Source: Roseobacter ponti (GTDB lineage: Bacteria; Pseudomonadota; Alphaproteobacteria; Rhodobacterales; Rhodobacteraceae). From it: DNA of 64,000 bases. The stretch spans positions 1,488,001 through 1,552,000 of the forward strand of contig NZ_CP048788.1 in the NCBI RefSeq assembly GCF_012932215.1, in the 5' to 3' direction. The notes beneath the pieces were generated by a model. The model did no database searches and was not told the DNA's origin. It saw only the letters and a program-made list of their open reading frames with translations. The translations under genes were made by a program, and so were the position numbers. This document shows, in pieces, positions 4,311-8,964 of the stretch (position 1 is its first letter; each line of letters opens with the position of its first letter).

Positions 4311-4319
4311 TGTGGATAA
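4311..4319 (-). promoter_or_regulatory. Perfect DnaA box (TTATCCACA on minus strand)
   Basis: The plus strand reads TGTGGATAA, the exact complement of the E. coli-type consensus DnaA box, in the intergenic space between the K+ channel and the HNH gene. Two further perfect copies lie about 3 kb away at 7342-7350 and 7418-7426, all in the context CCTGTGGATAA. Whether DnaA binds here is inference. Confidence 0.45.
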
Positions 4320-4383
4320 CTGTCATATGCCTGTCATCCGGGCATCCTGACAAATGTGCGACATCTTGTGGTCACTCAGGGGC

Positions 4384-7178: not shown

Positions 7179-7332
7179 CACCGATCCCCCGTTTTTCATC
7201 ACCGGGTATCGCCGATGCAGGCAGAGCGCGCAACAGCTTCCGCCGGAGACTGCCCGCCCGACCCGGTGCGCGGGCTGTGATTCTCGTTAACCATTATTCG
7301 CGAAGGATCAGGAATGGTTAATATCAACAGGG

Positions 7333-7350
7333 TTATCCACCTGTGGATAA
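7333..7350. promoter_or_regulatory. Inverted pair of DnaA boxes
   Basis: The sequence TTATCCAC-CT-GTGGATAA is an 8-base inverted repeat. The right half is a perfect DnaA box on the minus strand (TGTGGATAA, 7342-7350) and the left half matches eight of nine positions (TTATCCACC, 7333-7341). It lies in the divergent gap between xthA and the repeat-protein gene. Confidence 0.5.
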
Positions 7351-7417
7351 ATTATTTTCAGTGCAGGATCCGGGCGAAAACCCCGCCAGCCCGGTGAGAT
7401 TGCGACCACCCAGGACC

Positions 7418-7426
7418 TGTGGATAA
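7418..7426 (-). promoter_or_regulatory. Perfect DnaA box
   Basis: TGTGGATAA, identical to the copies at 4311 and 7342, and placed 8 bases before a CtrA-like site. The whole region 7179-7527 is gene-free and unusually rich in TTAAC half-sites (TTAA at 7287, 7318, 7434, 7445 and 7489). Confidence 0.45.
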
Positions 7427-7433
7427 CGGTGTA

Positions 7434-7448
7434 TTAACAGAGCGTTAA
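7434..7448. promoter_or_regulatory. CtrA-type binding site TTAA-N7-TTAA
   Basis: TTAA (7434-7437), seven bases, then TTAAC (7445-7449) exactly fits the alphaproteobacterial CtrA full-site pattern. It lies 80 bases upstream of the ATG of the repeat protein, so it is well placed to control that promoter. A short palindrome CCCGC-ATT-GCGGG (about 7470-7482) and another GTTAACG follow before the gene. CtrA control is inferred from the motif alone. Confidence 0.5.
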
Positions 7449-7527
7449 CGAGAAATTATCTTTGAGTTTCCCGCATTGCGGGCAAACGTTAACGGGCGAT
7501 CTGAAACTCACACCAAAGGGATACGAA

Positions 7528-7818
7528 ATGACCACCAACACAGCACTCCGCCTTGATCTCGCCACAGCAACCTCCGCACCAAGCGCCGATATGCACGGCG
7601 GCGAAGCCACTGCACTTTTCACCACATCAATGGCACCCCGGGGCACAAATATGCTCAGCGGTGCGGGCACGGAACTCTTCACCACCTCCATGGGGCCCGC
7701 GGGCGACACCATGACCGGCGGGCAGACCGGGCTCTACACCACGTCCATGGTCAGCGGCGGCGATGTTCTGTCAGGTGAGGCAACAGGGCTCTTCACCACA
7801 TCGATGACACCGGCCTGA
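7528..7818 (+). CDS. Small LFTTSM tandem-repeat protein, unknown function
   Basis: A 96-residue protein that is mostly a fourfold repeat. The core L[F/Y]TTSM occurs at residues 30-35, 50-55, 69-74 and 88-93, with a period of 19-20. Around it the unit reads roughly G-x-x-T-x-L-[F/Y]-T-T-S-M-x-x-x-G-D-x-[M/L]-[S/T]-G. Residues 1-23 form a non-repeated leader (MTTNTALRLD onward) with no signal-peptide character and no Cys anywhere. The repeat DNA copies have diverged at synonymous positions, so the protein repeat is under selection. The start has AAAGGG seven bases upstream; a longer frame from TTG 7462 is less likely. A CtrA-like site lies upstream and a 350-residue unknown protein follows. It could be a structural repeat protein or a multi-core peptide precursor; I cannot decide. 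Confidence 0.75.
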   Translation: MTTNTALRLDLATATSAPSADMHGGEATALFTTSMAPRGTNMLSGAGTELFTTSMGPAGDTMTGGQTGLYTTSMVSGGDVLSGEATGLFTTSMTPA

Positions 7819-7827
7819 GCAGTCAGA

Positions 7828-7866
7828 CCGGCGCTCTCGCAGCTATGATGGCCGGGGGAGCGCCGG
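7828..7866 (+). promoter_or_regulatory. Intercistronic hairpin
   Basis: CCGGCGCTC (7828-7836) and GAGCGCCGG (7858-7866) form a 9-bp perfect stem with a 21-base loop, in the 93-base gap between the repeat-protein gene and the 350-residue gene. There is no T-run after it, so it is more likely a processing or attenuation element that sets unequal expression than a full terminator. Confidence 0.45.
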
Positions 7867-7911
7867 GATGCACCTTACGACACGTGAAATACACCCCGGG
7901 GGGATCCGCAG

Positions 7912-8964
7912 ATGAACAAAGTTGTACCTATCGGTCTGCCGAAACGGCCCGGGCTTGCCGTCCGACAGGCGCTGCTGCTTGAAAACTTTGCCCTCAACCG
8001 CCGGGATAGTGGTGATGTTTACTGGCTCAAAGAAAATGCCGAACTTCTGAACATACTGCGCAACTCCGGAGCCGGATTACTGCCGGATGCGCTTGAGGTT
8101 TATGCCACGTTTTACGACACTCTCGAAGAGAGGCTGCAGTTTTTCCCGCAGTACTACCGGTTTCTGCTGTCCATCGGCCTTGATCTGGAAGACCTCGGGA
8201 TGACAGGCGACACCGGGGCGCGCCTTTGCCAGCGCGTCGCCGACAGCGATTATGCAGCCGCAGAGCTTTCCGATCTGCAGCGCGCAGAAGCCCGGCATTT
8301 ACTGGCCCGGCGCGGGCAGGCGGGCAGTGATCCGCAACTGAACGGGCGCCTGCATGACTTCATAAACACACCGCAAACATTTGCTTTACCGAATAAAAAA
8401 GCAGCCTACGAGCTCACGCACATCGTCTTTTACCTTTCTGATTACGGTCGGGTCGTTCCCGATCTTGCGCCCGAGGCGATGATCAGTCTTGAGTTTGCGG
8501 GGCTGCTCGCCTGGCTTGATCAGGACGTGGATCTGCTGGCGGAGGTCTGCATCGCAATCCGGTTCGCCGGGGGTACGCCCGGCAGGATCTGGGAAGACTG
8601 GCTTTCCAGCGAAAGCGCGGGATTTGTTCTGCTGCCTGACAGCCCGGACGGCGGACAGGACGCGTATCACGAATACCTCGTCACCGGCTGGTGGGCGTCG
8701 CAGACCGGTGCCGCCCCGTTTCCCGGCATCCCCGACCGTCGCGGGCTCAGCATCTGCCGGGTCGCTGCCGCGCGCGGACCATTGCGCAGCATATCAGAAT
8801 ATATGTTCCGTCTCGGGGATGCGCGCAGCAGTGACTGGGGCCAGATGCGTGGACTTCTGCAATCCGTCCTGCCCGAGGATGAGCATCGTATTCTGGAAGG
8901 GGCCGCAGCATCATCAGATGCCTTTGATGAATTCTTTCATGGATTTGCGCGCGCCGGAAACTGA
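7912..8964 (+). CDS. Protein of unknown function, partner of repeat protein
   Basis: A 350-residue soluble, mostly helical-looking protein with no signal peptide or membrane segment. Distinctive segments are LLENFALNRR near the start, ELTHIVFYLSDYGR at about 167-180, and WEDWL near 226. The central THxxFYLxDYG stretch is the strongest candidate for a conserved functional site because it groups His, Asp and aromatic residues. I do not recognise a characterised enzyme family. The ATG at 7912 has GGGGGGA about nine bases upstream. It lies directly after the LFTTSM repeat gene on the same strand, so the two are likely one transcription unit; it could act on, bind or export the repeat protein, but that is inference. 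The gene ends 33 bases from the convergent erpA. Confidence 0.75.
   Translation: MNKVVPIGLPKRPGLAVRQALLLENFALNRRDSGDVYWLKENAELLNILRNSGAGLLPDALEVYATFYDTLEERLQFFPQYYRFLLSIGLDLEDLGMTGDTGARLCQRVADSDYAAAELSDLQRAEARHLLARRGQAGSDPQLNGRLHDFINTPQTFALPNKKAAYELTHIVFYLSDYGRVVPDLAPEAMISLEFAGLLAWLDQDVDLLAEVCIAIRFAGGTPGRIWEDWLSSESAGFVLLPDSPDGGQDAYHEYLVTGWWASQTGAAPFPGIPDRRGLSICRVAAARGPLRSISEYMFRLGDARSSDWGQMRGLLQSVLPEDEHRILEGAAASSDAFDEFFHGFARAGN

Follow-up and report, generated by a model that had tools for sequence, protein, structure and literature searches.

What might a short protein made up largely of four repeats share with the larger protein encoded directly behind it? The question is raised by a gene pair of Roseobacter ponti, located in a stretch of 64,000 nucleotides (contig NZ_CP048788.1, positions 1,488,001 to 1,552,000), hereafter the window. 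Two plus-strand open reading frames (ORFs) are concerned, one at 7528–7818, which encodes 96 amino acids from an ATG at 7528, and one at 7912–8964, which encodes 350. An earlier note on this DNA, made from the letters alone, had described a leader followed by four L[F/Y]TTSM units at a spacing of 19–20 residues, a hairpin, and a 350-residue protein with a THxxFYLxDYG segment, and had likened the arrangement to a multi-core peptide precursor and a modifying enzyme under the control of CtrA. Our analysis indicates that the 96-residue protein and its neighbour, a member of the Pfam family DUF6902, a pair that recurs in numerous marine bacteria, are very probably a precursor and the enzyme that modifies it. 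For the locus as a whole, the explanation that we consider best, with moderate confidence, is a multicore cassette resembling those of ribosomally synthesised and post-translationally modified peptides (RiPPs), in which the DUF6902 protein would act as a peptide epimerase.

The repeat protein and its partner

The coordinates and spacings of the 96-residue protein agree with the description in the earlier note. Residues 1–24 (7528–7599) form a leader-like segment, as judged from its position and from the N-termini of its relatives, many of which begin with MTALRK, MSAQxK or MTAQRK. It is followed on the same strand by the units GEATA-LFTTSM (7600–7632), GAGTE-LFTTSM (7660–7692), GGQTG-LYTTSM (7717–7749) and GEATG-LFTTSM (7774–7806). 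Their L[F/Y]TTSM portions lie at 7615–7632, 7675–7692, 7732–7749 and 7789–7806, and DNA repeat analysis gives successive spacings of 60, 57 and 57 nt, or 20, 19 and 19 residues. The DNA pattern coding for FTTSM, TTCACNACNTCNATG, has three copies in this gene and a single further one in the 3.96-Mb genome. Searches of Pfam, NCBIfam, PADLOC and PHROGs with the 96-residue protein returned no match.

Of 149 genomes sampled from the bacterial family, 45 contain DUF6902, which was also detected at 58 loci in named genomes, mostly Rhodobacterales and including two Granulosicoccaceae. These 58 loci, together with 31 others and 13 further stretches, made a set of 102, which fell to 97 distinct loci on removal of five with a repeated DUF6902 sequence (L038, L043, L050, L061 and L097). 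In 96 of the 97 a repeat ORF precedes the DUF6902 gene in the same orientation, a count that includes five loci with a precursor partly hidden by a contig end or a run of N; at locus L056 all three units are degenerate. The same arrangement was seen in all four further informative loci (L106, equal to L120, and L111, L112 and L113), while L135/L148 (genome G819) was uninformative because the stretch begins 30 nt before the gene. A profile built from 16 precursors matched 42 of the 149 genomes, every one of which belongs to the 45 carrying DUF6902, and gave no match in the 104 genomes without it (Fisher p 6e-34; here, as in the core-unit and upstream-box statistics below, related loci are treated as independent). 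The three DUF6902 genomes without a profile match differ in kind. G099 does carry a two-core precursor (MMCCS, locus L096) that the profile missed, and G139 has a DUF6902 fragment at a contig end. The DUF6902 protein of G039 (locus L102) is only 27.6 percent identical, has no precursor, and has lost Y166, H170, D207, E211, Y252 and H253 in the alignment. With its conserved residues lost and its precursor absent, L102 is a natural negative control.

The units were then counted with a neutral anchor, G-x5-[F/Y], which occurs 575 times in 92 precursors versus 94 times in shuffled proteins; L102 (no precursor), L024, L039 and L095 (cut by contig ends) and L079 (run of N) were left out, and L017 was kept although it is cut by a contig end. 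For the 88 precursors with at least two units, from which entropy and selection were calculated, the positions +1 to +4, counted from the aromatic residue, have an entropy of 0.09–0.20 bits within a protein and 1.07–1.89 overall. Across species the four-residue cores include TTSM, TSGS, SSGS, TSGL, TSWS, STSS, TTSC, TCGA and CSAS, among others, and five-residue cores such as FTTSM, FTSGS, FTSWS, FSTSS and MTSVA are likewise uniform within a protein and variable between species. Position +2 is Ser in 78 percent and Thr in 15 percent of units, and the segment preceding the core is typically GDAVEMF in the relatives. The ratio of nonsynonymous to synonymous variation (pN/pS) is 0.185 in cores versus 0.825 in linkers. 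Since pS is similar in both (0.56 in cores, 0.63 in linkers), it is selection, and not recent copying alone, that keeps the cores identical.

Precursors carry from 2 to 20 copies, mostly 20–21 residues apart, as counted in 90 precursors with an anchor that did not always fall on an equivalent residue (L056 and L101 left out); in 57 of these 90 the protein ends at, or one residue past, a five-residue core match. Core class follows the enzyme tree, requiring 23 changes, compared with a mean of 47.7 and a minimum of 41 over 300 shuffles, the classes being our own grouping and the tree a quick one with 48 of 93 inner branches weak. Departures from the usual design were also observed. The precursor of L085 contains a run of MTSVA units eight residues apart, compared with the usual 20, and those of L112 and L113 have STSSF as their core and lack the aromatic residue where the anchor is normally found.

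DUF6902 and its remote relative DUF6895

The 350-residue protein matches Pfam DUF6902 (PF21843; 441.5 bits, cut-off 27, E 2.5e-132) over residues 4–348 and, with a lower score, DUF6895 (PF21836; 83.9 bits, cut-off 23.8, E 1.7e-23) over residues 24–225. These were its only Pfam matches, NCBIfam gave a single match below the cut-off (E 0.064), and no known RiPP enzyme family was matched in either database. A PDB sequence search returned nothing up to E 1, and plasmid records contained no match. The AlphaFold2 model is almost wholly helical (predicted local distance difference test, pLDDT, 94; predicted template modelling score, pTM, 0.92). Among 51 aligned DUF6902 sequences H170, Y178 and G179 are invariant, all within the segment THIVFYLSDYG (residues 169–179; 8416–8448). 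D207 and E211 in the DLLAE segment (8530–8544) and H253 are also invariant, and Y166 and Y252 nearly so; the pair Tyr252-His253 is encoded at 8665–8670 and is common to DUF6902 and DUF6895. Other invariant residues, namely W38, K40, E41, N42, Q80, R83, S120, D121, R124 and E126, are DUF6902's own.

The comparison with a multi-core precursor and its modifying enzyme is therefore well supported, in that co-occurrence (all 42 genomes with a precursor match, 96 of 97 loci), the presence of the repeat in relatives, the stronger conservation of core than of linkers within a protein, and the family assignment all agree. The THxxFYLxDYG segment is conserved, as the earlier note had supposed, and the larger protein belongs to no unrelated enzyme family. 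The same note knew of no described function for either gene; this holds for DUF6902, for our literature search, which covered few subscription journals, found no paper on DUF6902 or DUF6749, and it does not hold for the related DUF6895, for which there is a cited epimerase paper.

That paper, by Shi et al. in ACS Catal 2026, cited in PMC13352647, reportedly names in its title a lasso-peptide epimerase of the DUF6895 family. A profile comparison of 51 DUF6902 with 12 DUF6895 sequences gave a probability of 97.6 and E 3e-12. Nine residues are invariant in the 12 DUF6895 sequences, and seven have counterparts in the profile alignment: Y176, H180, G189, D219, E223, Y271 and H272 of the DUF6895 protein L123 correspond to Y166, H170, G179, D207, E211, Y252 and H253 of DUF6902, and E43 of DUF6895 probably corresponds to E44, beyond the aligned range. 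This shared set of residues leads us to favour, from sequence relationships, a peptide epimerase as the likelier function of the DUF6902 protein.

The loci of DUF6895 itself are informative in two respects. Of 19 such loci counted (L117, L118, L119, L121, L149–L155 and H1–H8, with H3, H4 and H6 assigned by alignment only; the below-cut-off matches L115, L116, L142 and L144–L146 and the match H11 left out), eight are immediately preceded by a small leader-plus-core peptide, and these belong to Pseudomonadota, Actinomycetota and Bacillota. The leaders share the consensus SGIINxxxTLDQL, with a mean column identity of 28 percent, and are followed by an aromatic, hydrophobic segment, for example GPWYAYH, GPWFVL or NYVYKG, which is duplicated in two of the peptides. 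A ninth locus, H6 from Gemmatimonadota, has an adjacent small ORF of ambiguous type, and the remaining ten show no such peptide (H3, H5, H8, L121, L149, L150, L151, L152, L153 and L154); by eye, DUF6895 stands beside a galU-like gene in L149 and L150. Secondly, two genomes of the same genus encode a protein with a DUF6895 domain C-terminal to an M55 D-aminopeptidase (L153 1983–3671; L154 2804–4627, minus strand). This fusion, which may be a single event, provides a link to D-amino acids that is independent of the title by Shi et al.

Some DUF6895 loci have features of their own. The fusion gene of L153 follows an ATP-grasp gene, and the two could possibly form a separate D-peptide pathway. Streptomyces plasmids carry two tandem DUF6895-type genes (L126, 4727–6612; similar in L124), in L126 with a serine hydrolase gene after the pair. 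A search of phage records with one DUF6895 protein returned nothing.

The closest competitor to an epimerase retains the multicore, RiPP-like precursor and assigns dehydration, cyclisation or backbone cleavage to DUF6902. The remoteness of DUF6902 from DUF6895 and its many invariant residues of its own (W38, K40, E41, N42 and others) would be in keeping with such chemistry, as would the Ser and Thr at core position +2, which are the usual targets of other modifications. However, most of the DUF6895 invariants are kept in DUF6902, and the lack of a match to any known RiPP enzyme family in Pfam and NCBIfam also speaks against it; we regard this possibility as unlikely. Still less probable is a structural, adhesive or storage role for the repeat protein, with DUF6902 as its chaperone or anchor. 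Units mostly of 19–21 residues, rich in Gly, Ser, Thr and Ala and varying from 2 to 20 in number, could be expected of such a protein, but its N-terminus does not, by eye, resemble a hydrophobic signal, and a core that varies between species yet is near-fixed within a protein is unusual for a structural repeat. The invariant His, Asp and Glu residues of the partner are moreover enzyme-like, and distant DUF6895 loci have single-core peptides. A precursor acted upon by a DUF6902 epimerase remains the reading that we prefer.

Genomic setting and upstream signals

The cassette lies between xth and erpA; where the length of the locus allowed scoring, xth precedes it in 88 of 91 cases and erpA follows it in 50 of 51. 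The exceptions include both Granulosicoccaceae loci. The two genes are also neighbours in all ten checked genomes without DUF6902, with 30 to 1,347 nt between the matches. Eight cassette-less intervals (L161–L168) contain different ORFs or no obvious ones, and an EamA gene is absent from all of them; the xth–erpA interval is a variable site. The accessible part of PMC6473078 names neither gene. Directly behind DUF6902, and on the same strand, 65 of 96 loci have a gene for an EamA-family permease, both Granulosicoccaceae loci included. The tblastn query for these genes was the permease of L120 (5872–6756, minus strand), which itself matches EamA, and the hits begin 3–113 nt after the DUF6902 match (287 nt in L011). 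In the window a repeat precursor stands beside an enzyme-like protein, which would agree with a RiPP system if the second modifies the first. The EamA gene is absent behind DUF6902 in the window lineage; EamA relatives elsewhere in the window genome are 25–30 percent identical. An origin of the cassette in phages or defence systems was rejected, there being no PHROGs match and no match to an anti-phage defence model of PADLOC.

The region before the precursor contains the sites that the earlier note had listed. Two facing DnaA boxes, one exact (7342–7350) and one with a single mismatch (7333–7341), occupy 7333–7350, a position that recurs at about −185 from the precursor start. A second exact box, TTATCCACA, lies on the minus strand at 7418–7426, 76 bp from the first, and recurs at about −110. 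A motif search also located a CtrA-type site, TTAACAGAGCGTTAAC, on the plus strand at 7434–7449, where it overlaps a −35-like hexamer; it is the only one in the window, for which 0.04 would be expected. Across 89 upstream regions, TTAA-N7-TTAA is present in 13, the window included (0.87 in shuffles). The CtrA site is therefore sporadic, above chance in some lineages and not general, and CtrA control of the cassette, as suggested in the earlier note, lacks support as a general feature; a CtrA regulon as the common theme was rejected on the same count.

The DnaA boxes are the more conserved upstream signal. Exact boxes occur in 50 of the 89 regions (0.23 in shuffles), their density being 2.77 per kb in the xth–precursor interval and 0.009 per kb in the rest of these loci. 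Of 74 boxes on the plus strand, 50 stand 108–113 or 181–188 nt before the precursor start, and, when up to one mismatch is allowed, 19 of the 89 regions have boxes separated by exactly 76 bp. It is likely, judging from these recurrent positions, that DnaA binds and acts on the window promoter. Because DnaA boxes are present, an origin of replication was considered as well; it was rejected, since GC skew shows no clear switch at this point, boxes are few, and the eight cassette-less xth–erpA intervals (of ten located) contain no exact one. The window has one more exact DnaA box at 4311–4319, upstream of an ORF starting at 4356 that encodes an HNH-like protein by eye. A literature search on DnaA boxes in Roseobacter gave nothing specific among the matches listed.

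It is highly improbable that the repeats act as a regulatory decoy that binds and titrates DUF6902 under DnaA control and yields no chemical product, for which the recurrent box positions, the joint presence of precursor and enzyme in 96 of 97 loci and a cassette devoid of a protease could be cited, as DUF6895 homologues stand beside single-core peptides, are fused to a D-aminopeptidase and include one protein titled an epimerase.

The hairpin noted after the repeat gene exists at 7828–7866 on the plus strand, with 19-nt arms, and could possibly set the ratio of precursor to enzyme. Its intergenic stretch folds with z −1.8 (11 of 200 shuffles fold equally well), and enrichment across loci is only modest, with z < −2 in 19 of 87 precursor–DUF6902 intergenic stretches. 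Rfam had no match between 7100 and 9100.

A proposed peptide cassette

For the epimerase reading, the following sequence of events could be envisaged. DnaA would set the timing of operon expression, and the precursor would be made in excess, perhaps aided by the intergenic hairpin. Its short leader would be followed by four units, each consisting of a recognition segment, G-x5-[F/Y], and a variable four-residue core, here TTSM. DUF6902, as a putative cofactor-independent helical epimerase, would recognise G-x5-F and convert at least one core residue from the L to the D form, probably through a two-base mechanism involving the invariant His170 and His253 together with Asp207/Glu211. A housekeeping protease may then cut the units apart, and the product may exit through the EamA permease where one is present; we propose both cleavage and export only tentatively.

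Several findings weigh against parts of this proposal. The epimerase assignment leans on the title of a paper and on a remote relationship, DUF6902 being a separate Pfam family, and P129, invariant in DUF6895, is not kept, its counterpart in DUF6902 being the aspartate D121. In 11 of the 19 DUF6895 loci there is no clear shared-leader peptide directly upstream, and no lasso genes were seen beside the DUF6895 loci examined, some by annotation and the rest from ORFs by eye. A Foldseek search of the DUF6902 model against the PDB had no match at E <= 0.001. M55 peptidases occur in 6 of the 149 family genomes, one of which has DUF6902, and the window's own genome has none; an M55 peptidase as the partner of DUF6902 within the family was rejected on this count. 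As to the promoter, 26 of the 89 upstream regions have no DnaA box even at one mismatch, and L106, L111, L112 and L113 have no exact box in the upstream stretch covered (only 278 nt in L111). The window cassette itself has neither a protease gene nor an exporter gene.

Known systems resemble the proposed cassette in some of its components. DUF6895 shares with DUF6902 a homologous region and its Tyr/His/Gly/Asp/Glu/Tyr-His set, and small leader-plus-core peptides adjoin it in the eight loci described above. DUF6902 differs in being a separate family without the DUF6895 proline, and in having multicore partners with another leader and no lasso genes at its locus. The lasso-peptide epimerase MslH, which according to PMC10406935 has two His/Asp pairs, a calcineurin-like fold and Ca(II), would share with DUF6902 the kind of reaction proposed, but not that fold, the DUF6902 model being helical. 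The same source lists conversion of L to D residues in ribosomal peptides by the radical S-adenosylmethionine (radical-SAM) enzymes PoyD and YydG and by the alpha/beta-hydrolases BotH and LinHL; in contrast to these, the DUF6902 protein has no Pfam match to either enzyme type. Cyanobactin precursors and the microviridin precursor AMdnA, as presented in PMC5934393, consist of a leader and several cores served by one modifying enzyme. The window precursor likewise has a leader and several cores; other enzymes and cores are involved, the DUF6902-linked precursors carry 2 to 20 near-identical cores, and the window cassette has no protease or cyclase gene.

The multicore precursor design and a named DUF6895 epimerase are already known. 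In the literature listings covered, which included few subscription journals, we found no description of the DUF6902 branch, of its variable multicore substrates, of the EamA partner or of a promoter with DnaA boxes, and a search on RiPPs in Rhodobacteraceae gave nothing specific among the matches listed. The cassette could conceivably, and we put this forward with some reserve, represent a new and widespread class of ribosomal peptides in Rhodobacterales, with short D-residue cores in 2 to 20 copies, a new family of helical epimerases, and a DnaA switch through which production would follow chromosome replication. Its product may be a species-specific signal, of which a core that changes between species together with the enzyme is expected. 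If this is true, a function would be assigned to a protein family that 45 of the 149 genomes sampled from the bacterial family possess, and these bacteria would have a peptide cassette linked to DnaA, a minimal RiPP design of two or three genes without radical-SAM enzymes, and a simple enzyme that introduces D residues at numerous points of a single chain.

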